NCBI GenBank assembly: GCA_902779165.1
Contig: CACZAN010000021.1
Coordinates: 1 to 51,861, forward strand
DNA from: an uncultured Bacteroidales bacterium
Lineage (GTDB): Bacteria > Bacteroidota > Bacteroidia > Bacteroidales > Bacteroidaceae
Direction: 5' to 3'
DNA length: 51,861 nucleotides
Below are positions 3,646 to 33,903 of the stretch, one piece after another (within the stretch, counting starts at the first letter, position 1; each line of letters starts with the position of its first letter). Below the pieces are notes generated by a model. It was not told the origin of the DNA. It ran no database searches and saw only the letters and a program-made list of their open reading frames with translations. Position numbers and translations under genes: made by a program.

Positions 3646-4878
3646 TTAACCGAAGAAGAGCTGCGCAATGATGATGGCGGCCACCATGGATGCCAGATCG
3701 GCAAGCAGGCCGCAAGGTAGGGCATAGCGCGTGTTGCGGATGCCCACAGAGCCGAAATAGACGGCAAGAATGTAGAATGTGGTGTCGGTGCTGCCTTGGA
3801 AGATGCAACTGAGGCGTCCGGCGAAGCTGTCGGGGCCGCAATTCTGCATGCACTCGAGCATCAGGCCGCGGGCACCGCTGCCGCTGAGCGGTTTCATGAG
3901 TGCTGTGGGCAGTGCGTCGGCAATGCCGGCATTGCCTCCACAGGCTTCCACCACCCAGGCAATGCCCCCTATCAGCCAGTCCATGGCTCCCGAGGCACGG
4001 AAAACGCCGATTCCAACGAGAATGGCTACCAGATAAGGGATGATGCCAATGGCTGTCTGGAAACCGCCCTTGGCTCCTTCGATGAAGGCGTTGTACACAT
4101 TAATTTTCTTTCGCATGCCCGCGATCAGGAAGGCAACGATAATGCCCAAGAGCAGTATGTTGGCCAAGTTGGTAGAGAAAATGCCCATCTGAGTCTGCGA
4201 CAATGCCACGGAGGCCCAGCCCATTCCGGCCACGATGAGCGAGAACAGCGTCAGGGTGATGAGCACCGGACGGTTCCAGAGACTGATGCGTTGGATGGCA
4301 CCGGTGATGGACACTCCGATGACCATGGAGATGAGCGTGGCAAGTAGGATGGGAACGAAGACGTCGGTCGGTTGGGCGGCCCCCATGGACGCACGATAAG
4401 CAAGGATGCTCACGGGAACGATAGTCAGGCCGGCTGTGTTCATCACCAAGAACATGATCATCGCATTGGAGGCGGTGTCCTTCTTCGGATTCAACTCCTG
4501 CAGACCTTCCATCGCTTTCAGTCCTAAAGGAGTGGCGGCGTTGTCTAATCCGAGCATGTTGGCGCTGAGGTTCATGAAGATGTTGCCCACCACGGGGTGA
4601 CCCTTTGGAATTTCGGGAAACAGCCGGTGGAACAGAGGCGACAGCCAGTGGGCCAAACGCTCGACCATGCCGCCTTGCTCGCCGATTTTCATGATGCCCA
4701 TCCACAACGAGAGTACGCCCGTGAGGCCGAGAGAGATTTCGAAGCCGGTCTTTGACGACTCCATAGTGGCGTTCATAATGGCGGGGAAGACCTCCACGTC
4801 GCCGAAGAACACGAGTTTCACCACTGCCACACAGGCGGCGATGAGGAAAAATGCAATCCAGATATAATTGAGAGACAT
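3646..4878 (-). CDS. Fused spore maturation protein A/B (nucleoside recognition domains)
   Basis: The 410-residue integral membrane protein has two Gate/nucleoside-recognition domains. The N-terminal SpmA-like half runs to about residue 195 and includes NLSANMLGLDNAATPLG. The C-terminal SpmB-like half from about 230 includes GFQTAIGIIPYLVAILV and ends with the PLSGSGARGLM and FQGSTDTTFYILAVYFG signatures. In Bacillus these are two separate proteins needed for spore core dehydration. In non-sporulating Bacteroidetes the fusion is common and its substrate is unknown. The gene converges on the DUF5107 gene with a 46-bp gap and no clear terminator hairpin. Its leader contains a GAAATGTC tandem repeat and its likely promoter lies at 4995-5002. 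Confidence 0.9.
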   Translation of the reverse strand: MSLNYIWIAFFLIAACVAVVKLVFFGDVEVFPAIMNATMESSKTGFEISLGLTGVLSLWMGIMKIGEQGGMVERLAHWLSPLFHRLFPEIPKGHPVVGNIFMNLSANMLGLDNAATPLGLKAMEGLQELNPKKDTASNAMIMFLVMNTAGLTIVPVSILAYRASMGAAQPTDVFVPILLATLISMVIGVSITGAIQRISLWNRPVLITLTLFSLIVAGMGWASVALSQTQMGIFSTNLANILLLGIIVAFLIAGMRKKINVYNAFIEGAKGGFQTAIGIIPYLVAILVGIGVFRASGAMDWLIGGIAWVVEACGGNAGIADALPTALMKPLSGSGARGLMLECMQNCGPDSFAGRLSCIFQGSTDTTFYILAVYFGSVGIRNTRYALPCGLLADLASMVAAIIIAQLFFG

Positions 4879-10135: not shown

Positions 10136-10816
10136 TTATCTCCAGTTCTTGCGGCAGATGAGCGCTGCGGAGATAAGGAGCTGCGAGGCAAAGTAGGTGG
10201 GCATCATCAGCGGATAGAGCGTGCCGTCGTGCAAGAAGCGCTTCTGGGCGATGAGCAGGTCGGAGAAAAGAAGGCTGGCGACGCCCGCGACAAATAGGAT
10301 TTTCCAAAGTTTAGAGGTCTTGGAGTGCGAAATGCATTCCAGGGCCTCTGCTTGTGTGGCGCAATCTGCACGGATTCCTGCAGCTGCCGCCAGCGAGAGG
10401 CAGAAAATGAGGATGTAGGCAAGGACGGCGCTGCTGGTGACCGCGTCGCTGATGGCGGGGCGAAGTAGAAAGACATAGTATGCTCCGAAGACCAGAGCCA
10501 GCAGCCAGAATAGCCAGTGCAGCAGGCGACCGTGGCAAAGGCTGTAGCCGACGTAACCAAGGTGTGCCAGCAGAAACAACCCGACTCCCGACACGAACCC
10601 CTCGAAGCTGCCACCCCAATGACCGAGAACGTAGTCGCCCAGAAACGACAAGGCAAAGGCGGCAACAACCCACCAGGCTGTCCGCTCCCGTCGTTGCACC
10701 ACGCAGATACAGAGCACAAGGGCCAAGCAGAGTAACGTGGTGGAGGAACGCAAGAAGAAGCTACCTGTGAGGAGGTAGCCAATCAGCGTAGCGAGGGGAA
10801 GGAGGAGGAAGGGCAA
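10136..10816 (-). CDS. YhhN family membrane protein (lysoplasmalogenase-like)
   Basis: The 226-residue protein has about eight hydrophobic helices. The YhhN/TMEM86 family pattern is visible in AFALSFLGDYVLG (about 54-66), FLLAHLGYVGY, and the C-terminal SLLFSDLLIAQ and YFASQLLI. Characterised members hydrolyse the vinyl ether bond of lysoplasmalogens. Plasmalogens occur in anaerobes, which would fit, but activity in Bacteroidetes is not established here. It converges on the small basic protein gene with a 19-bp gap. A dispersed repeat element lies immediately upstream of the start. Confidence 0.8.
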   Translation of the reverse strand: MPFLLLPLATLIGYLLTGSFFLRSSTTLLCLALVLCICVVQRRERTAWWVVAAFALSFLGDYVLGHWGGSFEGFVSGVGLFLLAHLGYVGYSLCHGRLLHWLFWLLALVFGAYYVFLLRPAISDAVTSSAVLAYILIFCLSLAAAAGIRADCATQAEALECISHSKTSKLWKILFVAGVASLLFSDLLIAQKRFLHDGTLYPLMMPTYFASQLLISAALICRKNWR

Positions 10817-10941
10817 GGAAATTGAAAATTGAAAATTGAAAATTCTTCAAGTGTGCGCTCGACCTTGTCGCTTGATACTTCAAGAAACTCGCAGGAGCCG
10901 AGCGGAAAATTGAAAGGCTTTACAGGCGCGGAGAGGTTGAA
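10817..10941. repeat. Dispersed ATTGAAA/TTCTTCA/GAGCGG element, copy 2
   Basis: Four runs of GAAAATT precede CTTCAAGTGTGCGCTCGAC, then GGAGCCGAGCGGAAAATTG and GGCGCGGAGAGG. It fills the space between the YhhN gene and the aldolase terminator. Confidence 0.65.
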
Positions 10942-10978
10942 AAGAAAAAAGTAGGGACCTACCGAAGTAAGTCCCTAC
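10942..10978 (-). terminator. Rho-independent terminator of the aldolase gene
   Basis: On the minus strand an 8-bp stem (GTAGGGAC at 10951-10958 pairing with GTCCCTAC at 10971-10978) is followed by a T-rich run corresponding to 10942-10950. Confidence 0.8.
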
Positions 10979-10989
10979 GTGATGGAGTT

Positions 10990-11988
10990 TTAGAGCTTGC
11001 CGTTGGAGCCGAGGACATCCACAATCTTGTGGATATACATCTTCTTCATGTTCTCGCGGGCGGGCTTCAGATACTGACGAGGATCGAAGTGGTCGGGGTG
11101 CTCAGCGAGGTGCTTGCGGATAGCGGCGGTCATTGCCAGGCGGCTGTCGCTGTCGATGTTGATCTTGCAGACAGCGCTCTTGCTGGCCTCGCGCAGCTGC
11201 TCCTCGGGGATGCCTACTGCATCAGGCAGCTTGCCACCGTAAGCGTTGATGGTATCTACCTCATCCTGAGGCACGGAGCTGGAGCCGTGGAGCACGATGG
11301 GGAAGCCGGGCAGCTTCTCCTCGATCTGGTGCAGGATATCGAAGGCGAGGGGAGGAGGCACGAGCTTGCCGGTCTTCGGGTCGCGGGTGCACTGTTCGGG
11401 AGTGAACTTGTAAGCTCCATGGCTGGTACCGATGGAGATTGCGAGGCTGTCGCAACCGCTGCGGGTGGAGAAGTCGATGACCTCTTCGGGCTTGGTGTAG
11501 TGGCTCTCAGCAGCAGACACTTCGTCTTCTACGCCAGCGAGCACGCCGAGCTCTGCTTCGACGGTGACGTCGTACTTGTGAGCATACTCCACAACCTGCT
11601 TGGTGATAGCAATGTTCTCCTCGTAGGGCAGGTGGCTGCCGTCGAACATCACGCTGGAGAAACCGTTGTCAATGCACTCCTTACAGATCTCGAAGCTGTC
11701 GCCGTGGTCGAGGTGCAGGGCAATCTGAGGATTGGGGCAGCCGAGTTCCTTGGCGTACTCCACAGCACCCTGTGCCATGTAGCGCAGAATGGTGCCGTTA
11801 GCGTAAGCGCGAGCGCCCTTGCTGACCTGCATAATAACGGGAGAGCTAGTCTCCACTGCAGCCTGCACGATAGCTTGCATCTGTTCCATGGTGTTGAAAT
11901 TGAAGGCAGGAATGGCGTAACCACCAGCAACAGCCTTCTTGAACATCTCGCGAGTGTTCACGAGACCCAGTTCTTTGTAGCTTGTCAT
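10990..11988 (-). CDS. fba: Class II fructose-1,6-bisphosphate aldolase
   Basis: The 332-residue protein shows the class II zinc aldolase signatures: HLDHGD (His92, Asp94, His95), VEAELG (Glu145), a metal-ligand His190 in TSHGAYK, and HGSSS (His234) for the second half of the site. It splits fructose-1,6-bisphosphate into glyceraldehyde-3-phosphate and dihydroxyacetone phosphate in glycolysis and runs in reverse in gluconeogenesis, in the cytoplasm. The length agrees with the 330-residue Bacteroidetes type. It has a clear terminator; no TAnnTTTG element was found between it and the upstream nuclease gene, whose own hairpin terminator sits in the 71-bp gap, so its promoter is unclear. Confidence 0.96.
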   Translation of the reverse strand: MTSYKELGLVNTREMFKKAVAGGYAIPAFNFNTMEQMQAIVQAAVETSSPVIMQVSKGARAYANGTILRYMAQGAVEYAKELGCPNPQIALHLDHGDSFEICKECIDNGFSSVMFDGSHLPYEENIAITKQVVEYAHKYDVTVEAELGVLAGVEDEVSAAESHYTKPEEVIDFSTRSGCDSLAISIGTSHGAYKFTPEQCTRDPKTGKLVPPPLAFDILHQIEEKLPGFPIVLHGSSSVPQDEVDTINAYGGKLPDAVGIPEEQLREASKSAVCKINIDSDSRLAMTAAIRKHLAEHPDHFDPRQYLKPARENMKKMYIHKIVDVLGSNGKL

Positions 11989-12041
11989 AATTACTTTTGT
12001 TTAATGAATTATAGGGTTATTTAATAGGGTTTATGGGTCTA

Positions 12042-12061
12042 AAAGGACTCTTAAGTCCTTT
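12042..12061 (-). terminator. Hairpin at the end of the EEP nuclease gene
   Basis: AAAGGACT and AGTCCTTT form a perfect 8-bp stem with a 4-nt loop, overlapping the stop codon of the minus-strand nuclease gene. The T-tract is weak. Confidence 0.5.
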
Positions 12062-13112
12062 ATCGTTTCCTGACGAAATAAGCAACGACGGGGAGGTGAT
12101 CGCTGTATCCGTCGAGCCACACTCCCGACGCGTGCGTGCGCTTGGGCGTTCCTTTGTATTTACCTTCGTTCTGGAGGAGGTAGGGGAAGCGTTGTATCTT
12201 TGCTTCGAAGAAGGTCAGGGTGCTATAGTCCTTCTGGCCTGTGATATCTAAGCAGTTGGGAGTCATTATGATCTGGTCGAAGAGGTTCCAGCCGCCCTGA
12301 TAGGAGAGGGTGCCGCGGCCATCAAGCAGGATCTGCCACCAGGGGTTATACATCTGTCCGTTAACGGCGTCTTCCATCTTACGTCGTGCTCCCAGACATT
12401 TGGCCAAAGAGGGGTCGAAGGGATCATCGTTCATATCTCCCATGACGATGATTTTCATCTGTGGGTTGGCGGCGAGGATGCTATCCTTCTCCTCACGCAC
12501 CATGTTGCCGGCAGCCTCGCGAGCGGGTGAGGTGGCACCACGGCTGGGCCAATGGCAGACGATGACGGTGATGCTGTCGCCGGCAAGCATCCCCTGTACG
12601 GTGAGGAATCCTCGGGTGGGACGAGTAATATGTTCGTTCAGGATATAAGGCTGCAGCCACGTCTTCGCCGGCTTGAAAAAGCGAGGATTGTAGAGCAGTG
12701 CGCAGTCCACGCCTCGACGGTCGGGACCTTCGATGTGTATGAACTGCATGCCGCGGTCGGCCAATGGCTTCTGTGCGCAGAGGTCGGTGAGGCAGTGAGC
12801 GTTCTCCACTTCGCTGACTCCGATGATGCAGCATCCCAGCCCCTTCAGACGTTCCGTTCCCATATCAGCCAAGACGCGCGACATGTTGGAGAGCTTGTGC
12901 TCATATTTCATCTGCGTCCAGTGGTTGTCGCCGTCAGGCAAGTACTCGTAATCGTTCTTGTCCTCGCCCGTTTCAGGGTTGAGGTCATGAGTGATATCAA
13001 AAAGGTTCTCGAGATTGTAGAATCCAATGCCGTAGAGTCCGAGCTGGCGGTTCTGTGCAAAGGATATTGTTGCGAAGAAAAACAACCAAGAGAGGAGAAT
13101 AGTCTTGCGCAT
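12060..13112 (-). CDS. Secreted endonuclease/exonuclease/phosphatase family protein
   Basis: The 350-residue protein begins with a signal peptide (MRKTILLSWLFFFATISFAQ). The EEP fold motifs are complete: FYNLENLFD (Asn33), GVSEVEN (Glu101), DRRGVDCALLY (Asp131, Asp136), VCHWPSR (His187), GDMND (Asp226, Asn228) and SDHLP near the C-terminus. Family members cut DNA, RNA, inositol phosphates or sphingomyelin with Mg2+. A secreted form lying divergently from an operon with a NUC1-type nuclease favours nucleic acid as the substrate; that is inference. Its promoter is likely the TATCTTTG at 13150-13157, about 100 bp from the promoter of the divergent operon. Confidence 0.88.
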   Translation of the reverse strand: MRKTILLSWLFFFATISFAQNRQLGLYGIGFYNLENLFDITHDLNPETGEDKNDYEYLPDGDNHWTQMKYEHKLSNMSRVLADMGTERLKGLGCCIIGVSEVENAHCLTDLCAQKPLADRGMQFIHIEGPDRRGVDCALLYNPRFFKPAKTWLQPYILNEHITRPTRGFLTVQGMLAGDSITVIVCHWPSRGATSPAREAAGNMVREEKDSILAANPQMKIIVMGDMNDDPFDPSLAKCLGARRKMEDAVNGQMYNPWWQILLDGRGTLSYQGGWNLFDQIIMTPNCLDITGQKDYSTLTFFEAKIQRFPYLLQNEGKYKGTPKRTHASGVWLDGYSDHLPVVAYFVRKR

Positions 13113-13149
13113 AGGGGTAATAGTGTTATAATATGTCTGATTTCGGCTG

Positions 13150-13157
13150 CAAAGATA
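13150..13157 (-). promoter_or_regulatory. Promoter -7 element for the EEP nuclease gene
   Basis: TATCTTTG on the minus strand implies a leader of about 34 nt. Together with the plus-strand element at 13253-13260 it forms a divergent promoter pair. Confidence 0.6.
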
Positions 13158-13232
13158 GTCCTTTTTTGTCGAAAGGAAAACATAATTGAAGAAAAACTTT
13201 CGTTAAAGAGAAAAAAATATGCATTACTTTAC

Positions 13233-13260
13233 TTTGTTTAGAGAATTTTGCATACCTTTG
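13233..13260 (+). promoter_or_regulatory. Promoter of the TonB receptor operon
   Basis: A TTTG at 13233-13236 (-33 region) and TACCTTTG at 13253-13260 (-7) match the Bacteroidetes sigma consensus. Transcription would start near 13264, which rules out the in-frame ATG at 13248 as the start codon. Confidence 0.65.
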
Positions 13261-13292
13261 TGGCGAAAATCATACATTTTCTGTTTTTACCA

Positions 13293-15857
13293 ATGAGAAA
13301 AAATCTTCTATTGACAGTCGCTTTGTTGGCGGTGGCCCTACACGGAGGGGCACAGACACCGACAACGAGTGAGAGAGACACCACGGAGGTGGATTGGGAA
13401 CCGGCCTTCGTGTTCGACGAGTCGGAACTCGACATGAACGAGGAGTCCGATGTTTCGCAGGATGTCATCCAGATTAATTCGGGCAGTAACATGTATCTGA
13501 GCAACATCAGTTATACGTTCAGTCCGATGTGGTTCAAGTTCCGCGCCTTGGATCAGCGTTACAATGACATCTATATGAACGGCGTGCTGGTGAACAGCGC
13601 CGAAACGGGCTCCTTTGCTTTCTCGAATAGTATTGGAGGACTGAATGATGCCTACAACCGTTCCGGCGACTTCGCGGCACCTTTTGAAACCAACACGTTC
13701 GGCCTGTCGGCATTTGCCGGAAGCACCAACTACAACTTCCGCGCCAACAATTATGCAGCCGGGCACAAGGTCACCCTTTCCGGTACGAACCGTAACTACC
13801 GTGCACGTGCCATTTATTCTTTCGGTACGGGAGTGTCGCAGAAAGGCTGGGCGTTCTTCGGAACCGTAGGCTACAGATGGGCCAACGAGGGATTTGCTGA
13901 AGGGACGTTCTACAACTCGCTAAGCTACTTCCTCACCCTGCAGAAGATTTTCAACAACCGCCATAGTCTCAGTCTCAGTACCTGGGGCACACCGACCGAG
14001 CGTGGACAGCAAGGCATTTCGACCGACGAGGCCTATTGGTTGGCAAACGATTATCAGTATAACCCCTATTGGGGCTATCAGAACGGCAAGAAGCGCAACT
14101 CGCGTGTCGTCAAGATCTTCGAGCCGTCGGCACTGCTGACGTGGGACTTCCAGATCAGGGATAACCTGAAACTGACCACATCGCTCTACGGCAAATATGG
14201 CATGGATTGCCGCACCCGTCTGCAATACAACAACTCGCTGAATCCGAAGCCCGACTACTGGAAGGCATTCCCCTCATATTTCTATGATGTATGGGGGCTC
14301 ACTGACGGCTCGAACAATGACATCGCTGCATGGCAGGACGCCTATGACTATTGGACGGCTGATAAGGCCAACCGGCAGATTCAGTGGGACAAGCTTTATT
14401 ATGCAAACTCGCAGATGAACGCCGTCGGCGGAGACGCTGCTTACTATATGCTGGCCCGCCACAGTAACCAGTTCGCCCTACATCTGGGTTCCACACTGAA
14501 CTGGGATATCAACCCCACAACGAAGTTCCAGGCTGGAGTGCAGCTGGCCAGCAATACGGGACAGCACTATCAGACCATCTCAGATATGATGGGCGCCGAA
14601 AAACTCCATAATGTCAACAACTACGCAATCGGAAAATACGTGGGAACCGACCCCCGCGTGCAGTACGACCTGAATAACCCTAATGCCAACGTTGGCGTGG
14701 GCGACCGCTTCGGTTATGATTATAATATCGTTGTTCAGAAGGCGACCGCTTGGGCTCAGTACTCGAAGGATATGGGTATCAGCCATAGTTTCATCTCCGC
14801 CAAGATCGGCGGCACGCAGATGTGGCGCGACGGCAAAATGCGCAACGGTCTCTTCGCAGACAACAGCTACGGCAAGAGCGGCACGGCCCGCTTCCTCGAC
14901 GGCGGATTCAAAATAGGTACGAACCTTAATTTCGGTAAAGTCCACGTCCTGGGATTTGGCGTCAGCTATATGATGAATGCACCTAATGCATCAGGCTTTG
15001 GCACCGGTGCCTTCCAGGCTCCTGAAATGAACAACAACTTCATCGATGGATTGAAGGTGGAGCACATGGCTGCTGCTGAAATCGGTTATGCCGTAAACCT
15101 CAACTGGCTGCGCGCAAACCTCAGCGCCTATTATATGCATGGCACCCGCCTCAATGAATGGCAGAACTACTACTACGACGACGTCAACAGCTTCACTTAT
15201 GTGAGCATGACAGGTGTCGAGAAAGACTACTACGGTGTGGAGCTCGGACTCCGCTTCAAGGTCACTTCAGCGTTCAGCATCGATGTACTTGGATCGATGG
15301 CTGATGCAAAGTACATGAAGAACACGGAAGTGAGCTACCTCCTCTCTACGGAAGGCACCGTCACGAACGATGTCTTATATAATAAAGGTATGCGCGAGGC
15401 GGCCACTCCGCTCACCGTGGCCAGTATAGGATTGAACTACAATATCCGCGGCTGGTGGTTCACCCTCAAGGGTAACTACTATGATCGCATCTACCTCAGC
15501 TACTCGCCTTCGCTGCGCTACCAGAGCACACTCATCCGCTCCGGAGCGGTGGATAACGATGGCTCGCTCATCGTGCCGGAACAGGCGAAAGGCAACGGAG
15601 GATTCATGCTTGATGGTAGCATTGGACATCAATTCCGAATCGCAAATCATCCGCTTAGCGTGAACCTGATGCTCACCAATATACTGAATAACCGTAAGTT
15701 GGTCAACCGTGGTTGGGAGCAGAGCCGCAGCAGCTACACCACCGACCAGACCACGGGTGAGAAGTCAACCATCCGCACCTACAACTTCCAAAAGAACCCG
15801 ATGAAGAGTTATGTACAGGGATTCAACTTCATGCTGAACCTCAACTATAGGTTCTAA
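13293..15857 (+). CDS. TonB-dependent receptor-like outer membrane protein
   Basis: The 854-residue protein starts with a signal peptide (MRKNLLLTVALLAVALHGGA), followed by a plug-like region (about 30-170) and many amphipathic aromatic beta-strands of an outer membrane barrel, ending FNFMLNLNYRF with the typical terminal Phe. There is no N-terminal carboxypeptidase-like domain of classic SusC proteins and no SusD gene beside it. The start at 13293 is chosen because the longer frame from 13248 begins upstream of the likely transcription start. It heads an operon with a DUF5689 lipoprotein, a repeat lipoprotein and a nuclease lipoprotein, so the imported ligand may be a nucleic-acid product. 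A TonB box could not be assigned. Confidence 0.85.
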   Translation: MRKNLLLTVALLAVALHGGAQTPTTSERDTTEVDWEPAFVFDESELDMNEESDVSQDVIQINSGSNMYLSNISYTFSPMWFKFRALDQRYNDIYMNGVLVNSAETGSFAFSNSIGGLNDAYNRSGDFAAPFETNTFGLSAFAGSTNYNFRANNYAAGHKVTLSGTNRNYRARAIYSFGTGVSQKGWAFFGTVGYRWANEGFAEGTFYNSLSYFLTLQKIFNNRHSLSLSTWGTPTERGQQGISTDEAYWLANDYQYNPYWGYQNGKKRNSRVVKIFEPSALLTWDFQIRDNLKLTTSLYGKYGMDCRTRLQYNNSLNPKPDYWKAFPSYFYDVWGLTDGSNNDIAAWQDAYDYWTADKANRQIQWDKLYYANSQMNAVGGDAAYYMLARHSNQFALHLGSTLNWDINPTTKFQAGVQLASNTGQHYQTISDMMGAEKLHNVNNYAIGKYVGTDPRVQYDLNNPNANVGVGDRFGYDYNIVVQKATAWAQYSKDMGISHSFISAKIGGTQMWRDGKMRNGLFADNSYGKSGTARFLDGGFKIGTNLNFGKVHVLGFGVSYMMNAPNASGFGTGAFQAPEMNNNFIDGLKVEHMAAAEIGYAVNLNWLRANLSAYYMHGTRLNEWQNYYYDDVNSFTYVSMTGVEKDYYGVELGLRFKVTSAFSIDVLGSMADAKYMKNTEVSYLLSTEGTVTNDVLYNKGMREAATPLTVASIGLNYNIRGWWFTLKGNYYDRIYLSYSPSLRYQSTLIRSGAVDNDGSLIVPEQAKGNGGFMLDGSIGHQFRIANHPLSVNLMLTNILNNRKLVNRGWEQSRSSYTTDQTTGEKSTIRTYNFQKNPMKSYVQGFNFMLNLNYRF

Positions 15858-15907
15858 GGAGAGAAAAGTGAAAATGAATAATGAAAAATATAAGTTACAA
15901 TAGACCA

Positions 15908-16759
15908 ATGAAAGCTAAACATATTTTTCTTACCATTATCTCAGTGATGATGCTTACGGCCTGTATGGATAAGGAGTGGGAGGCACCGGATATGACGGAG
16001 CCTGCTTACGGAAACAACTCCATACAGCAAGATGCCACCAAGCAGGTGACGATAGACCAACTCAAAACCGCCTATGCCAACGCAATCTCCGGTGGCGGCT
16101 TCCAGCGCATCACTGACGACCAGCAACTCCTCTGCACCGTTATCGGAAATGATATCGGCGGCAACATCTACAAGCAAATCATCGTGCAGGATTCCACGGG
16201 AGCGATGGTTGTGGGTATCAACGGAACGGGACTTTTCCCCTTCATCAGCGTAGGTCAGCAAATACTCATCAGCCTCAAAGATCTCTGCATCGGCGGTTAT
16301 GGCCAGCAAGCACAAATCGGCGATGAGTACAATGGCAGCATCGGCCGAATGAGTACCAAGAAGTGGGAAGAGCACGTGCGCATACTGCCTTCGCACGATA
16401 TGAGTCAGATCGACACGCTCGATTTCGACATCGCTATGGACAAGAACCGCTACGCAGGGCATCTCGTACGCCTAAAGGACGTGATGATTGGCGACGCCGA
16501 CGGAACAACGACCCTCGCTCCGGAGTACAAGGCGGGCACCACGCTCACGTATAACGGTTCGACCAACGGTTATGTGCACCACTCCCTCAATGGCGAGTCG
16601 ATGAATGCACTCGTGTTGCGCACCAGTACCTATGCAGACTTCGCATCACTCGTGATTCCTACGGAGCCGGTCACGCTTTATGGCATCGCGACGCGCTACA
16701 ACAGCACCTGGCAGATCCTCATTCGTGCAGCGGACGATATCAAGGTAAATGAAAAGTGA
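15908..16759 (+). CDS. DUF5689 domain lipoprotein
   Basis: The 283-residue protein has a lipoprotein signal (MKAKHIFLTIISVMMLTAC, lipobox LTAC) and a DUF5689 region (about 35-280) with an OB-fold-like pattern, for example IIVQDSTGAMVVGING and FPFISVGQQILISLKDL. I chose the ATG at 15908 because the signal sequence begins there; the frame extends to 15881. DUF5689 proteins are surface lipoproteins of Bacteroidetes found beside TonB receptors and nucleases; the function is not established. By position it could be the surface ligand-binding partner of the receptor, replacing SusD. It is 50 bp downstream of the receptor gene and 20 bp upstream of the repeat lipoprotein. Confidence 0.8.
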   Translation: MKAKHIFLTIISVMMLTACMDKEWEAPDMTEPAYGNNSIQQDATKQVTIDQLKTAYANAISGGGFQRITDDQQLLCTVIGNDIGGNIYKQIIVQDSTGAMVVGINGTGLFPFISVGQQILISLKDLCIGGYGQQAQIGDEYNGSIGRMSTKKWEEHVRILPSHDMSQIDTLDFDIAMDKNRYAGHLVRLKDVMIGDADGTTTLAPEYKAGTTLTYNGSTNGYVHHSLNGESMNALVLRTSTYADFASLVIPTEPVTLYGIATRYNSTWQILIRAADDIKVNEK

Positions 16760-16779
16760 AAAATAAAATATAACTCAAT

Positions 16780-19299
16780 ATGAACAAGTATTCTAAACTG
16801 CTGCTATGTGCAGCCTTAGGGCTTGCAACGTTCACGGCCTGCGAGGACGTGCCGGCACCTTACAACATTCCGTCTGACAACCCCACGCCTGTGGCTCCTA
16901 CGGCAGACTATGTCATCAACCAATCTTTCACTTCCAGTCTCGGTGACTTCCAGTCCCAAAGCGAGAGCGGTACGCTGGCGTGGGCGGCAAATTCCAAGTA
17001 CGGCGCCATCATCACGGGTTATAATGACTTTGATGGCGACGGGCAGAAAGAGAACAAGCCCGGTGTGACTTATCTCAATAGCCCGGAAATCGACCTGACA
17101 GGGGTCGACAGCGCATACGTCGTTATAGACCAGGCTATTAACTATGCAAAAGAGACGTTGGCCGATGACCACCATCTCCTTATCCGTGTGGGTGAGGGCG
17201 AATGGGTTGAGCTGCCTATGGATTTCGATGGTCTCGGAAATTCCTTTAATTACATCACTCAAAATATCCAGATTCCGCAGGAGTATATGGGCAAGAAGAT
17301 TCAACTTGCCCTGAAGCACGTAGCCCACGACAGCTATTCTTCCACCTGGGAGGTCAAGAGCCTGTCTGTCGCCAAGGGTACGGCACCGAGTACTGAAGCA
17401 CGTGTGATTGAAGGTGGAGTAGGTAGCGGAACGAAGGATGATCCGTATGACGTGGCAACCACCATCAAGCTGATAGCCGCTGGCGCACCTTCTGAGAAGA
17501 TATATACGAAGGGTATTGTCTGTGAGGTGGATGAATCGAGCTTCGATTCCAAATATGGAAGCCTTATTTATTACATCTCTGACGACGGTAGTCAGAAAGA
17601 TAAACTCGAAGTCTATCGCGGTTATGGGCTTGGTGGCGCTAAGTTCGGGGCCGCTGATGGCTTGAAGGTAGGCGATGAGGTCATCGTCTATGGTCAGGTG
17701 GTCTACTACAACAACAAGACGATGGAGTTCACTCAGGGCAGCGAACTGTACAGCCTCAATGGTGTGACTGCTGGTGGTGGCGTGAGCCCTGTCGGTATTG
17801 AAGTCACCTGCGCTGAAGCCGTGGAACTGACGAAAGCCTTGGCCGATGGTGCAACCTCTGAAGAGACTTATACAGTTACAGGCTATATCACTCAGGTCGT
17901 AGGCGCTGTCAGTCGCAACCAGCAAACTTTCTGGATGGCCGACACCAAGGATGGCGGCAAGGTCTTTGAGGCATACTACGCAAACCTTCCCGAAGGGGTC
18001 AGCGAGTTTAAGGTTGGTACCAAGGTGAAGATTACTGGTCAGCTCATTAAATATGTCAAAAACGATCAGATTACTCCTGAAATCAAGAATGCCACAGTGG
18101 AAATTCTTGAGGATGGCGGTGATATTCCTACACCTACAGGAATAGAGGTTACCTGCGCTCAAGCAGTGGAACTGACCAACGCTTTGGCTGATGGCGGCAC
18201 GTCCTCAGAAACTTACACCGTTACAGGCTATATCACCGAGGTGGTAGGTAACGTTAGCCGCAACCAGCAAACCTTCTGGATGGCCGACACCAAGGACGGC
18301 GGCAAACTATTCGAAGCATATTATGCTAACCTTCCCGAAGGTGTCAGCGAATTCAAGGTCGGCAGCAAGGTTAAGATTACCGGTCAGCTTATGAAGTATG
18401 TCAAGGATGGAAAGGTGACTCCCGAAATCAAGAATGCCACCGTGGAAATTCTTGAGAACGGCGGTGATACTCCTACACCTGCTGGAACAGAGGTCACCTG
18501 CGCTCAAGCTGTGGATTTGACTAAAGCCTTGGCTGATGGTGCAACATCCTCAGAGATTTACACCGTTAAAGGCTACATCACCGAGGTGGTAGGTAACGTT
18601 AGCCGCAGCCAGCAGACTTTCTGGATGGCCGACACCAAGGATGGCGGCAAGGTCTTCGAGGCATACTGGGCTAATCTTCCTGATGGCGTTAGCGCTTTCA
18701 CCGCAGGTTCGTTGGTTAAGATAACCGGCCAGCTTACGAAGTATGTGAAAGAAGGAAACGTTACACCAGAAATCAAGAACGCCACCGTCGAAATCCTTGA
18801 GGGAGGTGGTGATCCGCAACCCGGTGGTGATACTAAGACACTGTCTGACTTTGCTAATGGTAATTTCGAAACGTGGGCTGACGGTGTTCCTACAGGTTGG
18901 AAGAGCGCTTCCACTGCCGGCAACGCCACCCTCTCTCAGAGCACAGATGCTCATGGCGGCAGCTACTCTGTAAAAGTAGGAGGAGCCTCACAGAACAAGC
19001 GACTCGCTTACGAGGAGTTGCAGCTTGAGGCCGGAACCTACGCTGTCTCATTCTATGCCAAGGCGGCTACGGACGATGGCGGCAGTGTCAATCCTGGATA
19101 TGTTCCCATCAAGGATGACGGCTCTGCCGGCAGCTACGTGTATGGCGGATATGTTAATGACCTGAAGGCAAGCGAGTGGGTTAAAGTAGATTACGAATTC
19201 ACCCTGTCTGCTAAAACAACAATTTGCCTTGTCGTCATGAATTCCAAGAACCCGGGCAAGGATGTTCTCATTGATGACTACACCATTACAAAGAAATAA
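16780..19299 (+). CDS. Multidomain surface lipoprotein with three 115-residue OB-fold-like repeats
   Basis: The 839-residue lipoprotein (lipobox FTAC at about 18-21) has a jelly-roll 'choice-of-anchor' type domain (about 45-205, VINQSFTSSLGDF), one OB-fold-like domain (about 210-330, GTKDDPYDVATTIKL), three near-identical 115-residue repeats (about 340-684) each with EVTCAEAVELTKAL, YTVTGYI, QQTFWMADTKDGGK and KVKITGQL, and a C-terminal carbohydrate-binding-like beta-sandwich (about 690-839, FANGNFETWADGVPTGWK). The repeats resemble DUF6359/OB-fold modules. OB-folds often bind oligonucleotides, which fits the neighbouring nucleases, but carbohydrate binding by the terminal domain is equally possible. 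It likely sits on the outer face of the outer membrane. Confidence 0.82.
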   Translation: MNKYSKLLLCAALGLATFTACEDVPAPYNIPSDNPTPVAPTADYVINQSFTSSLGDFQSQSESGTLAWAANSKYGAIITGYNDFDGDGQKENKPGVTYLNSPEIDLTGVDSAYVVIDQAINYAKETLADDHHLLIRVGEGEWVELPMDFDGLGNSFNYITQNIQIPQEYMGKKIQLALKHVAHDSYSSTWEVKSLSVAKGTAPSTEARVIEGGVGSGTKDDPYDVATTIKLIAAGAPSEKIYTKGIVCEVDESSFDSKYGSLIYYISDDGSQKDKLEVYRGYGLGGAKFGAADGLKVGDEVIVYGQVVYYNNKTMEFTQGSELYSLNGVTAGGGVSPVGIEVTCAEAVELTKALADGATSEETYTVTGYITQVVGAVSRNQQTFWMADTKDGGKVFEAYYANLPEGVSEFKVGTKVKITGQLIKYVKNDQITPEIKNATVEILEDGGDIPTPTGIEVTCAQAVELTNALADGGTSSETYTVTGYITEVVGNVSRNQQTFWMADTKDGGKLFEAYYANLPEGVSEFKVGSKVKITGQLMKYVKDGKVTPEIKNATVEILENGGDTPTPAGTEVTCAQAVDLTKALADGATSSEIYTVKGYITEVVGNVSRSQQTFWMADTKDGGKVFEAYWANLPDGVSAFTAGSLVKITGQLTKYVKEGNVTPEIKNATVEILEGGGDPQPGGDTKTLSDFANGNFETWADGVPTGWKSASTAGNATLSQSTDAHGGSYSVKVGGASQNKRLAYEELQLEAGTYAVSFYAKAATDDGGSVNPGYVPIKDDGSAGSYVYGGYVNDLKASEWVKVDYEFTLSAKTTICLVVMNSKNPGKDVLIDDYTITKK
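17797..18831 (+). repeat. Three in-frame 345-bp tandem repeats
   Basis: Units start at 17797, 18142 and 18487, each exactly 345 bp (115 codons) long and very similar at DNA level, for example the shared CAAACTTTCTGGATGGCCGA-type segment. The exact period and high nucleotide similarity point to recent duplication and possible copy-number variation. Confidence 0.9.
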
Positions 19300-19308
19300 T
19301 AAGAACTG

Positions 19309-20199
19309 ATGAAATACCCAAAATTGCGTTGGGCATCCATACTTTTACTCTTGTGTGCAGCAGCTCCAATCTTTTGGAGCTGCTCTTCAGATGATAATGA
19401 GGAGGATAGCCCCACGGCCAACACAAATGCAAACTACATCACAGACGGCCCTGTGGCAGCTCGGCTTGAGATTCCGAAACTGAAGGGCGGCGTGGTGAAT
19501 ATGTTTCTGGTGAAGAAGCTGTCGACAGGCGCTGTAAACTTCTGCATTGAATGGGATATCTCGAAGAAAGCTCAGCGGTGGACCGCCTTCCGGTGGGATA
19601 ATACCAACAGCGGAGGCTACGTCAAGCGCGAGGATAACTTCATTGAGGATACAGATATCCCTGCCGAGTACCGTACCAACCAGAGTTTCTACAGTGGGTC
19701 AGGCTACACGCGTGGGCATATCATTGCCTCCGCCGACCGCTGGAACTCTGTGGAAGCCAACCGTCAGACATTCCTGTATTCGAATATGCAGCCGCAGCTC
19801 TACAGCTTCAACGGTGGCATCTGGGCGAACCTCGAAATGAAGGTGCGCTCGTGGAATACCGCCGATTTCCGCGATACGCTCTATGTGGTCAAAGGTGGGA
19901 CGATAGATCATAACTCAGATCTCATAGAGATTACGGACAAGGGACTGCGTGTGCCGAAGTATTTCTTCATGGCTATTCTCTGCAAGAATAAAAGTACGAT
20001 AAATGGAGGATACAAGGGCATAGGATTCTTCATGGAGCACCGCTCGTTTTACGAGGATCCCGAGAACATGAAGCCTTATATCAAGAGTATTGATGAACTG
20101 GAACAACTGACAGGCATCGATTTCTTCTGCAACCTGCCCGACCGCGTTGAAGAACAGGTGGAAAAGACGGTAACACCCACCGCTTGGGGCTTTCAGTGA
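19309..20199 (+). CDS. DNA/RNA non-specific endonuclease lipoprotein (NUC1/NucA family)
   Basis: The 296-residue protein has a lipoprotein signal (lipobox WSC at Cys25) and an NUC1 domain (about 70-270). The catalytic motif reads TRGH (His137) in place of the usual DRGH, followed by the conserved Asn and Gln of YSNMQPQ (Asn159), Asn168 and WANLE (Glu176). These His-Me finger enzymes cleave single- and double-stranded DNA and RNA with Mg2+. The gene follows the repeat lipoprotein by only 9 bp, so it closes the operon that begins with the TonB receptor. Lipid anchoring would keep the nuclease at the cell surface or in the periplasm. The D-to-T change at the first motif position is seen in some homologues and need not abolish activity. 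Confidence 0.88.
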   Translation: MKYPKLRWASILLLLCAAAPIFWSCSSDDNEEDSPTANTNANYITDGPVAARLEIPKLKGGVVNMFLVKKLSTGAVNFCIEWDISKKAQRWTAFRWDNTNSGGYVKREDNFIEDTDIPAEYRTNQSFYSGSGYTRGHIIASADRWNSVEANRQTFLYSNMQPQLYSFNGGIWANLEMKVRSWNTADFRDTLYVVKGGTIDHNSDLIEITDKGLRVPKYFFMAILCKNKSTINGGYKGIGFFMEHRSFYEDPENMKPYIKSIDELEQLTGIDFFCNLPDRVEEQVEKTVTPTAWGFQ

Positions 20200-20249
20200 A
20201 GAGAAATGTCTCTTTTTTAGCCCTTAGAACGCAGAAAGTTCCGAAAATC

Positions 20250-20281
20250 TTTGGTCACGTCGCAGAAAAGCAGTACTTTTG
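20250..20281 (+). promoter_or_regulatory. Promoter of the L31 gene
   Basis: TTTG at 20250-20253 and TACTTTTG at 20274-20281 are spaced as expected for -33 and -7 elements. The leader would be about 87 nt and holds a direct repeat. Confidence 0.6.
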
Positions 20282-20303
20282 CGCCGCAAAAATAACGAAC
20301 GCA

Positions 20304-20367
20304 GGTACACAAGCCCTGCCAATTACTCACTCGCCGGTACACAAGCCCGGCAAAACTACTCAAACAA
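20304..20367 (+). repeat. 32-bp direct repeat in the L31 leader
   Basis: GGTACACAAGCCC occurs at 20304-20316 and again at 20336-20348, and the following bases also resemble each other (ATTACTCACTC versus AACTACTCAAAC). The repeat lies between the promoter and the start codon. Confidence 0.6.
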
Positions 20368-20371
20368 AACA

Positions 20372-20623
20372 ATGAAACAAGGTATTCATCCCGACAACTA
20401 TCGTCCTGTTGTTTTCAAGGACATGAGTAACGGCGACATGTTCCTCAGCCGCTCCACTGCCAAGACCACCGAAACCGTGGAATTCGAAGGTGAGGAATAT
20501 CCCGTAGTTAAGCTCGAAATCTCCAGCAGCTCACACCCCTTCTACACGGGTAAGAGCAAGCTTGTAGACACCGCAGGTCGCGTCGACAAGTTCATGAGCC
20601 GCTACGCTCGCAGCCGCAAGTAA
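20372..20623 (+). CDS. rpmE2: 50S ribosomal protein L31 type B
   Basis: The 83-residue protein starts [19 protein letters not shown] and ends [11 protein letters not shown]. It has none of the Cys residues that bind zinc in type A L31, so it is the zinc-free type B form of the large ribosomal subunit. In organisms with both types, the zinc-free form replaces the other under zinc limitation; no second copy is visible here. The start at 20372 agrees with the family; the frame extends upstream into the leader, which contains a direct repeat that could have a regulatory role. A strong terminator follows. Confidence 0.96.
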
Positions 20624-30234: not shown

Positions 30235-33200
30235 TTACTTAACCATCACCTTACGGTAGGTGCCGTCGCTCATACGAACGATGTTCATACCGCGGCTGAG
30301 GCGAGACATCTGACGGCCGTCGAGGCTGAAGAACTGAGTAGCCTTAGCGTTAGCGTCAACAAGGCTTTCGACAGCATCGAGTTCGTCCTCGAAGTTCTTG
30401 CCAGTCTTGCCGAGGTAGTAGAGACCCCAGTTCGTGAAGATGGTCCAGTCGCCCTCGATGTGAGCGGTCTTCTTCACGGAGATGGTCATCTTACCATCCT
30501 CACCCACCTGAACCTTGAGGCTGTTGTTGTAGAGGCCTTGCTCGAAGTAGCTCTGAGCAGCTTCCATGTTGTTGGGGATGTAGAAGGTTAAGGGCTCTTC
30601 TTCGATAGTAACCTTGATCTCGGACTCAGAACCAAAGCCAATCTGGATTTCCTGAGCGTCGGCAGCTGCGTTCATGATAGGAGCAGCAATGGTGCCGATA
30701 GCCGTGGTAGCTTCAAGGCGGGCGTTCTGAACAGAAGCGATAGAATCGTTGTAGTCGCCGGGGAAGCCTGCACGATAGTAACCCTGAACGGTGATCTCGT
30801 AGAAGCCGGGCTTCAGACCTTCGATAGCCTGATAGACGTTGATGGTGTCGTTGTTGTAGCATTCCATCTCGCTGAAGTCAACAGCGTAGTTGTTGCCACC
30901 AATGTTCTCAATCGTCCAACCAGCAGCGGAGTAACCTTCCTGGAGGTTGTAGTTCTGATAGTCGCGGTTGTAGATGATGTGGCTTGCGTCGAACTTCTTG
31001 GTGGGTTCTTCGCCAGCGTCGAAGAGCACGTATGCGGGCCAAGCCTTCTTGATACCAGCGATGATATCATCGACAGCTTCGTTGCTTTCGATCTTGCCAG
31101 GATTCTCGTACTTCTCGTTAGCAGCAGTCAGTACGTTCGGGAATGCAGTGTCGCCGGAAGGAACATTGTTGCTTAGGTCAGTGTAGAGGCTGATGCAGTC
31201 TTCGAGTTCGCGACCCTTCTTGGCACCGCCCTTGATGTACTCGGTAGCCTCCTGGATCTCCTTCATCAGAGCCAGAGCCTCGTCGCCGGTGGTCAGTTCT
31301 TCCATCTTAGCGCAACGTGCGTTGAGAGCATTGTACTTGTCCTCCGAAGCCTTGGTGATGAATGCGCCTTCAGCTTCGTAAGCATTCTGCATCTTCAACT
31401 GTTCGTCTTCGATCATGCTGTAGTATCCGGTGATGTCATTACCAGCGTATGTGATTTTTATGTTATCCCAGAGTACCCATTCGTGAGTGCTGTTGCTGCG
31501 AACGCCAATGCGGAGGTCGCCAGCTTCCTGAAGGTTAATCTTAACGGTACGCTGGTAGAAGGGCTGGCCGGTGAGAGGATTCTCAGTAGCAAAGTAAACC
31601 ACAGCGCCTGCCATGCCGTTGGGCACGTAAACGGTAGTACCATCATACATGGTCAACTCGGTGTCGCCGAAGCTTTCAGCGTCGTACAGCTTTTCGAGGC
31701 TGTACTCATCCGGACCTTCGCCGGCAACGATGCTGATGCTCGGGAAGCGGACAGTGCTGTTGCCTGCATAGAGCTCAATGGTAGGCTCTTCCAGACCGTC
31801 GTCCAGACGGGCGAAGCCCTGAACGGAAATCTCATAGATACCAACGGGCATATTGGGAATCACCTGATAAAGGTCGAAGTTCTGGTGCCAGGACTCTACT
31901 TCGTGATAGTCCACACCATCGAATACGGTCCAAGCGTCGCCGCGGCCTAAGGTCCAGCCTTTCAGGCCATTGTCGAAGCCGGGGTTCTCAAGCAGGAATG
32001 TGAGGTTGTCGCCTTTCTGAATCTTGTCGCCCTGGATGAAGGCAAAGATCAGATCATGAACCTGTCCCTCAGCAGCGGTAGCCTCTTCGGTGGTCAGAGT
32101 GCGAGCGTCGAACTTGCCGAGCAGGTCGTCCTTCAGATTTTCGAGCTGATCAACCAGACCACCCCAGGTGTCATTCTTAATGATCTCATCAATAATGTTT
32201 GCAAGTTCACCATTGTCATTGATGAAGTAGTTGTCGAAATCAGCATAAGCCTTCACAGAAGCTTCGAAAGCAGCCTGGGCAGCACTCAGATTATCAGCAG
32301 CGAGACCACATGCATTATCGTCACCCTTGTCGTCGAGAACCTTCTGAGCATCTTCAATAGCTTTTTCGAAAGCCGTAAGCTCGTTAGCGTTTGCGGGAAC
32401 GTCGGTGTCAATAGCTTCTGCCTTCTTGATGGCTTCCTGGAGGTTTGCCTGAGAAGGAGTAAGTTCTGTCTTACCGTAGAATGTAATCTTAAAGTTATCA
32501 GCAGCAATCCAGTTGGCGGTAGCGCTCACGGTCTTCAAACCGAAGGTGAGCACGTCGGAACCGTCGTGGATATAAGTAACGCTGAAGTGTTCGGGCTGTC
32601 CGTTGCCAGTAGCAAGAGTTGTAGTGGCTTCGTACTGACCGGCCTGGATGAAGAGGAATACGCCTTCTGCGGGGTTCTTACCGATACCGCCTTCTCCGCT
32701 GTGGTCGGCCCATTGATAGGTAGAGACGGCGTCTGCTTCGAGTACATACTTACCTGCGGGCAGGCCATAGACGGTCTGCTGGAGGTAGCCGTCGCCGATG
32801 GTCCAAGGATTGCCATCGCTCTTCCAAGCTTCGATGAACTGGCTGATAGTTACATCGCCGTTTGTATAGGACTGATTGGACTGATAACCAATGTTATTAG
32901 CCTGCTGACCACTTACGTAGTTGGTGGTCCATCCACTGATGTCGCCAGTCGAGAAATCGGGGTTCTGAAGCACGTATTCAGTGGCCTCGATGGGCTCGTC
33001 CTCACTGGCCCCTCCGAGAATAGATTCGAAGTAAGCACGGTTGATGGCAGCCTGGAGAGCAGCAGTAGCAGCTTCCAGTTCAGCCTTTGTTGCACTGGGG
33101 TTGTTGTAAACCTGAGTAGCGGCGTTGGTGTCTACAGAATAAGACAGTTCCTTAGTGCTCATGAGCACGTCATAGAGACCCTTGCGAGCCTCATAACCTT

Positions 33201-33903
33201 CGAGTTGGATGACGTAGGTGGTGGGATCGATGAAAATCCAGTCAATGCTGTAAGTGGGATCTTCGTCCTCGCAGTTGAATTTCACAACGGTAGATGGCTC
33301 AAGACCTGTCTCGGGATCTGCAATGAGGTTGCCTTCTTCGTCAACAACGATGGGACCGTTGGTGCTGTCCCAACCTGCGAACTGAGTAGCTGCATCGGGG
33401 TAGGCGGGATCGCCATCGGCGGTCTGGATGCGATAGTAACCGTTATCGGTCTTCGAAATCTTCCAGATGTAACCCTTGTCCTGAGATCCGTGATCCATGA
33501 AACCTTGAGCTTCATCGTCGCGGAACAGGTAAGTGTTGGTGAAGCTGCGCTTGCCGCTGGCGCCATTGACGGTGAAAGTACCGTCCAGACGCATGGATAC
33601 GCCCTTAACCTGGGTGCTGGCGATAGTAGCCGTAGAGTCAGCCACATAAATCAACAGTGCGGGCGAGTAGGTGTCGCTGATGCCTGCACGGGTGAGGCTG
33701 ATCTGAGTTGACCAAGAATTGCTACCAGTAATGAACTGACCAGCACCTACATTCTTAATGTAGTAGCTCTTGCCAGACTCTACGGTAGAAACGTTGGTCT
33801 CATCGAGAACCGGTGCGGTCGGCTCAGTCCACTGAGCGTAGGCACTTGTACTCATGAACATTGCGCCTGCAAGCGCAATCAGAGAGAGTAACTTTTGTTT
33901 CAT
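30235..33903 (-). CDS. Large secreted multidomain protein with C-terminal sorting domain
   Basis: The 1,222-residue protein has a signal peptide (MKQKLLSLIALAGAMFMSTS), a beta-trefoil-like N-terminal region (about 30-240, SYYIKNVGAGQFITG), helical FIVAR-like linkers (about 275-310 and 500-560), several carbohydrate-binding-like beta-sandwiches introduced by NPDFSTGDISGWTT, NPGFDNGLKGWTLG and similar phrases, and a C-terminal FFSLDGRQMSRLSRGMNIV segment. The last piece resembles the short sorting domain of type IX secretion cargo in Prevotella. No catalytic domain is recognisable, so it may be an adhesin or glycan-binding surface protein. A T9SS plug gene lies at 43246-44493. The start at 33903 is downstream of the promoter at 34004-34011; the longer frame to 34014 is not. 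Confidence 0.85.
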   Translation of the reverse strand: MKQKLLSLIALAGAMFMSTSAYAQWTEPTAPVLDETNVSTVESGKSYYIKNVGAGQFITGSNSWSTQISLTRAGISDTYSPALLIYVADSTATIASTQVKGVSMRLDGTFTVNGASGKRSFTNTYLFRDDEAQGFMDHGSQDKGYIWKISKTDNGYYRIQTADGDPAYPDAATQFAGWDSTNGPIVVDEEGNLIADPETGLEPSTVVKFNCEDEDPTYSIDWIFIDPTTYVIQLEGYEARKGLYDVLMSTKELSYSVDTNAATQVYNNPSATKAELEAATAALQAAINRAYFESILGGASEDEPIEATEYVLQNPDFSTGDISGWTTNYVSGQQANNIGYQSNQSYTNGDVTISQFIEAWKSDGNPWTIGDGYLQQTVYGLPAGKYVLEADAVSTYQWADHSGEGGIGKNPAEGVFLFIQAGQYEATTTLATGNGQPEHFSVTYIHDGSDVLTFGLKTVSATANWIAADNFKITFYGKTELTPSQANLQEAIKKAEAIDTDVPANANELTAFEKAIEDAQKVLDDKGDDNACGLAADNLSAAQAAFEASVKAYADFDNYFINDNGELANIIDEIIKNDTWGGLVDQLENLKDDLLGKFDARTLTTEEATAAEGQVHDLIFAFIQGDKIQKGDNLTFLLENPGFDNGLKGWTLGRGDAWTVFDGVDYHEVESWHQNFDLYQVIPNMPVGIYEISVQGFARLDDGLEEPTIELYAGNSTVRFPSISIVAGEGPDEYSLEKLYDAESFGDTELTMYDGTTVYVPNGMAGAVVYFATENPLTGQPFYQRTVKINLQEAGDLRIGVRSNSTHEWVLWDNIKITYAGNDITGYYSMIEDEQLKMQNAYEAEGAFITKASEDKYNALNARCAKMEELTTGDEALALMKEIQEATEYIKGGAKKGRELEDCISLYTDLSNNVPSGDTAFPNVLTAANEKYENPGKIESNEAVDDIIAGIKKAWPAYVLFDAGEEPTKKFDASHIIYNRDYQNYNLQEGYSAAGWTIENIGGNNYAVDFSEMECYNNDTINVYQAIEGLKPGFYEITVQGYYRAGFPGDYNDSIASVQNARLEATTAIGTIAAPIMNAAADAQEIQIGFGSESEIKVTIEEEPLTFYIPNNMEAAQSYFEQGLYNNSLKVQVGEDGKMTISVKKTAHIEGDWTIFTNWGLYYLGKTGKNFEDELDAVESLVDANAKATQFFSLDGRQMSRLSRGMNIVRMSDGTYRKVMVK

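Follow-up and report, generated by a model that had tools for sequence, protein, structure and literature searches.

A candidate TonB-energized DNA importer with a conserved nuclease partner in Bacteroidia

The stretch of DNA analysed here, 51,861 nucleotides from an uncultured Bacteroidales bacterium (GCA_902779165.1, contig CACZAN010000021.1) and called the window below, includes a locus that probably encodes a TonB-energized importer of DNA in the outer membrane. An earlier note, made from the letters alone, had proposed a nucleic-acid acquisition locus in which an EEP-family nuclease gene stands divergent from an operon for a receptor, a DUF5689 lipoprotein, a lipoprotein with OB-fold repeats and a NUC1-type nuclease, and each of the five genes is found at, or close to, the coordinates that it gave. 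Nucleic acid import is upheld by synteny and homology with two genes essential for transformation in another bacterium, by the linkage of the EEP gene, by the recurrent recruitment of nucleases and by the predicted tandem-OB fold of the DUF5689 protein. The note had left the ligand as DNA or RNA; nucleic acid is supported, and nothing found points to RNA in particular. The features of the locus are as follows.

12060..13112, minus strand: EEP nuclease gene, a core component; signal-peptide-like N terminus, PF19580 (E 2.4e-84) and conserved catalytic-type columns
13113..13292, no strand: divergent intergenic region with a TAnnTTTG site on each strand
13293..15857, plus strand: outer-membrane receptor with the fold of TonB-dependent transporters, 854 residues from the ATG at 13293; RA0C_RS04915 clade
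15881..16759, plus strand: DUF5689 lipoprotein, a putative DNA-binding surface lipoprotein; RA0C_RS04920 counterpart
16780..19299, plus strand: multi-domain (multi-OB) lipoprotein with a choice-of-anchor-J (CAJ)-like domain, a divergent OB domain, three OB repeats and a CBM_4_9-like domain
17794..18825, plus strand: the three tandem OB repeats of that protein (17794-18138, 18139-18483 and 18484-18825)
19309..20199, plus strand: NUC1-type (Endonuclease_NS) nuclease lipoprotein, a lineage-restricted component (PF01223, E 1.8e-44)

The counterpart with a known phenotype is in Riemerella anatipestifer. According to the retrieved text of the report, which is partial for this and the other papers cited, a transposon screen for natural transformation identified RA0C_RS04915 and RA0C_RS04920, and markerless deletion of either gene abolishes transformation (PMC8459023). 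RA0C_RS04915 is described as a carboxypeptidase-regulatory-like protein of the outer membrane and RA0C_RS04920 as a DUF5689 and DUF5017 protein with a choice-of-anchor J domain; the two genes are predicted to form an operon, ComEC is RA0C_RS04895, and RA0C_RS04910 is mentioned as an upstream gene (PMC8459023). In the locus of R. anatipestifer CCUG25054 (L183) we found ComEC at position −4 relative to the receptor, a divergent EEP gene at −1, and at +1 a gene for DUF5689 (PF18942, E 1.7e-56) joined to a CAJ domain. The second Riemerella locus (L156, in genome G503, a single contig of 2,164,087 bases) has the same order, with a receptor 93% identical to that of L183 and ComEC at E 2.6e-57 (PF03772). 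The domain fused to DUF5689 is recognized in L183 by the CAJ model and not by Pfam DUF5017, and L156 has a DUF5017 match below the cut-off. As the locus tags advance in steps of five, the spacing of RS04895, RS04910, RS04915 and RS04920 fits the order in L183, and by position RA0C_RS04910 is the EEP nuclease. The Riemerella model, in the retrieved text, leaves the enzyme that makes single-stranded DNA unidentified (PMC8459023), and the EEP gene is the obvious candidate for it. Adjoining the uptake locus in L183 (15664-21106) are a gene of 1400 amino acids and then genes of 299 and 112 amino acids, which we take to be Cas9-like, Cas1 and Cas2.

The window shares with the Riemerella system the receptor clade, the DUF5689 protein encoded directly downstream, the gene order and the divergent upstream EEP gene. 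It differs in that its receptor lacks the N-terminal CarboxypepD_reg domain, that DUF5689 and the CAJ-like domain are on separate proteins, the latter on the next one, that triple OB repeats and a NUC1 nuclease are added, and that ComEC is not adjacent but on another contig of the genome (C4). One locus of the window's own order (L047) has both the CarboxypepD_reg domain on its receptor and DUF5017/CAJ fused to DUF5689. The window receptor is 26% identical to that of L183, and in a tree of 46 chosen clade receptors and 10 ordinary TonB receptors, assessed by SH-aLRT without bootstrap, the window and Riemerella receptors (L156 and L183) fall in one clade apart from the 10 others (SH-aLRT 100). 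Within it the Weeksellaceae and Flavobacterium rows group together (99), as do those of the window's order (96). The branches broadly track host groups, which fits an old, mostly vertically inherited locus. Placement of the genome in Bacteroidales agrees with its RfbA, whose six best plasmid records are all from Bacteroidales (82–86%, followed by E. coli at 68%), and with its receptor, which is closest to that of Prevotella sp. oral taxon 299; a search for a fimbrillin family stayed below the cut-off. Distant receptors (L053-L063, 25–29% identity) were rejected as members: the two that were scanned, L054 and L062, have a Plug domain, and the ten of the set that entered the tree fall as an outgroup.

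The earlier note called the receptor a TonB receptor, and the predicted fold, not the family search, supports this. No Pfam family, Plug included, and no NCBIfam family matched it at E ≤ 0.001, and its status therefore depends on an AlphaFold2 model (pLDDT 68.6), which matches Fiu, FhuA, FecA and BtuB with a best E of 1e-21, over about 730–940 gapped columns among the 50 matches listed. The barrel and the global fold match those of TonB-dependent transporters; the plug region is mostly under pLDDT 50. The alignments behind the fold models drew on named organisms, with 21 of their 64 receptors and 18 DUF5689 proteins. The open reading frame as listed, 13248-15857, begins at a TTG, and the signal-peptide-like stretch follows the ATG at 13293, which is the likelier start.

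The receptor occurs across the class. In a search with the window's receptor, 26 of the 37 genomes of the same genus (the window's own among them) match at E < 1e-100; outside its family, 9 of 24 genomes of the order do so at E < 1e-40. A profile of 12 receptor rows matches at least 89 of 395 genomes of the class at E < 1e-100, a lower bound because no more than two candidates were scored in each genome; 7 of 7 genomes of the window's family are among them. The receptor is present in 56 of 60 Weeksellaceae genomes, and receptor-family matches at E ≤ 1e-60 occur in 24 of 59 and 37 of 59 genomes of the families around genomes G044 and G037, respectively. The neighborhoods of 131 loci with a full receptor were compared: 20 from relatives of the window, 40 from the class (about one per genus, of the 89 genomes), 8 from Weeksellaceae and 63 from named organisms, one locus with a partial receptor (L244) being omitted from the named tally of 64. 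The four sets overlap in taxa, and the 131 loci are not independent cases.

In these sets, 18/20, 34/40, 7/8 and 61/63 loci, respectively, have an EEP gene no more than two genes upstream of the receptor, and 18/20, 39/40, 8/8 and 63/63 have a DUF5689 gene no more than two genes downstream. Eleven of the 131 loci have no upstream EEP gene, and three of these (L044, L097 and L226) have one elsewhere. NUC1, counted anywhere in the locus, is found in 11 of 20 relatives, 4 of 40 class loci, and none of the 8 Weeksellaceae or 63 named loci. The core set is thus EEP, receptor and DUF5689. Of the co-occurrence of DUF5689, NUC1 and EEP genes with TonB receptors for which the earlier note had suggested a search, the linkage of EEP and DUF5689 is class-wide, whereas NUC1 is lineage-restricted. 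NUC1 is present in both of the named Bacteroidales loci. In Bacteroides finegoldii (L258, NZ_OY725948.1) the genes for NUC1, a CAJ protein, the receptor, DUF5689 and EEP follow one another in this order on the same strand. Prevotella sp. oral taxon 299 has a receptor 51.7% identical to that of the window, together with NUC1, DUF5689 and an OB protein. The receptor and DUF5689 are also matched in named records of Flammeovirga and Aureibacter. The B. finegoldii operon is on a circular record of 27 kb labelled as a plasmid and is followed by the gene for an outer-membrane β-barrel protein.

Nucleases of several other families are also found beside the core genes. The neighbor scan took 87 of 170 candidates at positions ±2 and ±3 of 48 loci and omitted proteins shorter than 120 or longer than 900 amino acids or matching the EEP or receptor models. 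Among the 25 families listed of 116, the nuclease families at ±2 in the 87 proteins are PLDc_2 (4), Exo_endo_phos (4), Endonuclease_NS (3) and Endonuclease_1 (3); type IX secretion tails (18) and additional DUF5689 proteins (9) also occur there. At control positions ±5 and ±6 of the same loci (83 proteins), none of these four nuclease families reaches two members, and there is one NUC1 gene, at +6 in L095; the control families with at least two members that are nearest to nuclease-like are HD (3) and Lactamase_B (2), among the 25 listed of 204. The presence of several unrelated nuclease folds at one type of locus points to nucleic acid as the ligand. In one locus a single protein joins DUF5689 to a PLD-type nuclease and carries a type IX secretion tail (L115:12621-14834); the proteins at +2 in L101 and L120 score with the DUF5689 model and are similar to this fusion in length and placement.

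The EEP protein was described in the earlier note as a secreted nuclease with its catalytic motifs, and this is borne out by the PF19580 match, by conserved columns and by an N terminus that looks like a signal peptide, without a lipobox, when judged by eye rather than with a signal predictor. Residues N33, E103, H187, D226, N228, D338 and H339 are in columns conserved at 93% or more in an alignment of 125 homologues and the window protein. The Asn, Glu, Asp-x-Asn and Asp-His residues of the EEP type, which are presumably the catalytic ones, are thus all present. Two genomes of family f82 have a second EEP-family gene, which is the third gene downstream of the receptor (L129:5429-6397 and L133:12963-13937).

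The NUC1 gene product likewise appears to be the nuclease lipoprotein that had been proposed, by its PF01223 match and a lipobox seen by eye. Its closest solved relatives are the nuclease 2o3b (E 1.1e-24) and mitochondrial EXOG, and EndoG is also matched. The motif is TRGH in place of DRGH, with Thr as the first residue, and RGH (135-137), N168 (the metal-binding Asn) and E176 are conserved at 90% or more in 15 homologues and the window protein. A surface nuclease placed with DNA uptake has parallels in the competence nucleases of Streptococcus pneumoniae (EndA) and Bacillus (NucA); likened by description, the window's nuclease is a functional analogue of these at most.

The DUF5689 protein (PF18942, E 5e-58) has a lipobox Cys28 that is invariant in the 19 rows of its alignment, and it shares with the multi-OB and NUC1 proteins a Cys lipobox followed by acidic residues, as judged by eye. 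Among solved structures, the best matches to its AlphaFold2 model, made from 19 sequences (pLDDT 82, pTM 0.77), are HIN-200 domains of IFI16 and related proteins, and telomere end-binding protein, POT1 and RPA appear in further rows, with E values from 1e-4 to 2e-2 and 15 of the 50 rows listed at E ≤ 0.001. HIN-200 domains consist of two tandem OB folds that grip DNA, and those of IFI16 and AIM2 are the closest to the fold predicted for DUF5689. The model suggests tandem OB folds of the DNA-binding kind in DUF5689, and a similar use of OB tandems is likelier than homology with HIN domains. PDB sequence searches gave no match for the EEP, receptor or DUF5689 proteins. A second and weaker DUF5689 match in the window's genome (E 2.2e-7, G000:C1:68226-68675, L064) lies inside an open frame of 1569 amino acids. 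DUF5689 also matches in Bacillus subtilis, one of the control genomes, in a protein that is probably the nuclease YhcR.

The multi-OB lipoprotein has the OB-fold-like domain (PF01336, E 5.2e-12) and the three repeats of about 115 residues that the earlier note had recognized: they are 115, 115 and 114 amino acids long and identical at 99/115, 94/115 and 90/115 positions (78–86%). Three domains can be added to that description, a choice-of-anchor-J-like N-domain (residues 53-197), a fourth, divergent OB domain (residues 215-330) and a C-terminal CBM_4_9-like domain (E 7.1e-9). A PDB sequence search with this protein gave three weak matches (E 0.14–0.46). A search for a defense system with PADLOC gave only a 30-residue match in the OB repeats to an oligonucleotide cyclase model (E 7.5e-6), and such a role was rejected.

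In the mechanism that we propose, surface lipoproteins with OB folds (DUF5689, helped by the multi-OB protein) would capture extracellular DNA, which in the window's lineage the surface NUC1 nuclease would first cut where it is long. The receptor would pass the DNA to the periplasm, powered by TonB, and the exported EEP nuclease would trim or process it. A periplasmic HhH protein, ComEC and DprA, all encoded elsewhere, could then carry one strand into the cytoplasm. We infer from these comparisons that the ligand in the window organism is DNA, and likewise the surface location, the dependence on TonB, the order of the nuclease steps and a role in transformation rather than in feeding alone. 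In R. anatipestifer TonBA is needed for full transformation and the tonBA mutant was not iron-deficient in the medium used; the authors suspected a nutrient effect (PMC8383284, in the retrieved text). In addition to ComEC (E 4.3e-54) and DprA (E 4.0e-67), the window genome, which is 86% complete, encodes a short triple-HhH protein that has a hydrophobic stretch near its N terminus and is 20–24% identical to a Riemerella protein, probably RA0C_RS02645 from its three HhH motifs. The genome thereby shares the inner half (ComEC, DprA and an HhH/ComEA-like protein) of the type IV pilus-dependent uptake of other Gram-negative bacteria; those systems use a retracting pilus and a secretin, where here a TonB-type receptor and OB lipoproteins would serve (pilus genes were not searched for). 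A DNA importer that is old in Bacteroidia and does not rely on type IV pili is the best explanation of these observations. A wider proposal, possible though rather doubtful, is that Bacteroidia share an ancestral, pilus-independent, TonB-powered DNA translocon of transporter, HIN-like tandem-OB receptors and EEP, the latter being the missing processing enzyme of Riemerella, and that gut Bacteroidales carrying this locus are naturally competent in some condition still to be discovered.

Several points weigh against import of DNA for transformation. To our knowledge there is no DNA-uptake phenotype or experiment for the window's genus. ComEC and DprA match in 10 of 14 and 11 of 14 control genomes, and a crude profile of two sequences finds the HhH protein in 362 of the 395 class genomes, whether or not they carry the receptor, so that this protein is uninformative about the receptor; being this widespread, the three genes prove little by their presence. 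The receptor itself is patchy and is therefore unlikely to be the sole uptake route. The locus of Prevotella sp. oral taxon 299 has no EEP gene within the 16.8 kb examined. Residues 1-89 and 123-144 of the receptor model, in the plug region, are below pLDDT 50, and the HIN matches of DUF5689 reach TM-scores of only 0.15–0.41 at 7–12% identity among the HIN rows listed. Feeding would account equally well for surface nucleases and a CBM_4_9-like domain. Flavobacterium johnsoniae has homologues and yet was not transformable under the conditions used, and RA0C_RS04910 is not among the hits of the screen, a small one of 3,000 mutants (PMC8459023).

The explanation that survives best besides transformation is nutritional scavenging only, in which the importer would take up fragments of DNA or RNA as a source of phosphate, nucleosides or carbon without any link to transformation in Bacteroidales. 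We consider this unlikely, though it deserves weight. Two exported nucleases, one of them a surface-type lipoprotein, would shred DNA, and NUC1 is lineage-restricted. Flavobacterium has phosphate-inducible Pus systems, and its extracellular nucleases with PF04231 and PF00932 are induced under phosphate starvation (PMC8115612, in the retrieved text); PF04231 is found in 3 of the 87 neighbors at ±2. A gene with a Gate domain (nucleoside recognition), at 3646-4878 and thus some 7 kb left of the locus, would suit scavenging and may or may not be related. Against scavenging, no separate phosphatase, nucleotidase or nucleoside transporter family is among the 25 families listed of 116 at ±2, and the receptor and DUF5689 genes are essential for transformation where this has been tested (PMC8459023).

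A second possibility is that the locus remodels extracellular DNA, in the biofilm matrix or in escape from DNA traps, with nucleases and OB lipoproteins holding and cutting DNA at the surface and the receptor importing only small products or signals. The export or lipoprotein signals seen by eye on the nuclease and OB proteins are in keeping with this, but it is improbable because it leaves unexplained the recurrent pairing of receptor, EEP and DUF5689 and the loss of transformation without the receptor (PMC8459023).

The least tenable explanation, which has very little probability, is a SusCD-like system for polysaccharide or glycoprotein with incidental nucleases. As in SusCD loci, a TonB-dependent receptor and a downstream lipoprotein are in one operon, so that the description in the earlier note of a SusCD-like system with DUF5689 in place of SusD is a fair analogy; the closest characterized relative is a transformation DNA-uptake system and not SusCD. 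The transporter fold and the CBM_4_9-like domain in 16780-19299 would fit a glycan ligand, as would CBM-model matches in a downstream gene of 7 of 40 class loci (L107-L110, L112, L121 and L124). CBM_4_9-like domains are not diagnostic of glycans. Unlike SusCD loci, the operon has no SusD-family lipoprotein and no glycoside hydrolase, and its receptor has no Pfam Plug match; as the earlier note had stated, SusD and glycoside hydrolase families are unmatched by Pfam in the eight window genes scanned (10136 to 20623), and none is among the 25 families listed of 116 at ±2. The glycan reading was rejected on this absence, and the neighbors of the B. finegoldii locus, a glucoamylase-family gene and bglX, count against the rejection and against DNA import. 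Homologous operons without nucleases and paired with glycan enzymes, which the earlier note had named as contrary evidence, are approached by this case, but its glycan genes are encoded on the opposite strand, with the gene of another outer-membrane protein between them and the locus, which keeps both NUC1 and EEP.

With DNA import as the preferred reading, the pair of receptor and DUF5689 was already known from one species, with homologues of RA0C_RS04915 reported, in the retrieved text, in Flavobacteriaceae only (PMC8459023), which is also the only paper on DUF5689 in the literature searched. What is new is the pair across the class Bacteroidia, named Bacteroidales such as B. finegoldii included, the EEP nuclease as a previously unrecognized third conserved partner, the recurrent recruitment of nucleases, and the model-based prediction of tandem OB folds for DUF5689. 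No earlier report of such links was found in the titles and abstract openings searched, which mostly do not cover subscription journals and preprints. The locus bears on how Bacteroidota bring DNA through the outer membrane and offers a testable answer without pili: it names genes to delete and gives DUF5689 a likely role. In Porphyromonas gingivalis, a competent member of Bacteroidales, import of DNA into the periplasm is described as unclear, and the pilus-like conjugation apparatus as not involved (PMC11532111, in the retrieved text). The locus is also relevant to possible gene exchange among Bacteroidales by means other than conjugation, and it could plausibly gain wider importance should gut Bacteroidales turn out to be competent.

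The divergent promoter pair of the earlier note may hold. The intergenic region 13113-13292 has one TAnnTTTG site on each strand, at 13253 on the plus and 13150 on the minus strand, where 0.27 are expected (P of two or more, 0.03, from mononucleotide shuffles). TAnnTTTG is the −7 promoter consensus of Bacteroidetes, and the pair may mark divergent promoters of the EEP gene and the operon; these statistics are suggestive only, and the counts from promoter and terminator scans were not above those of shuffles. Elsewhere in the window, a protein of 1259 amino acids without a Pfam match at E ≤ 0.001 is encoded on the minus strand at 30235-34014 and adjoins a polysaccharide export gene, and the sole Rfam match at the gathering threshold, at 35933-36351 on the minus strand, is a bacterial class A RNase P RNA.

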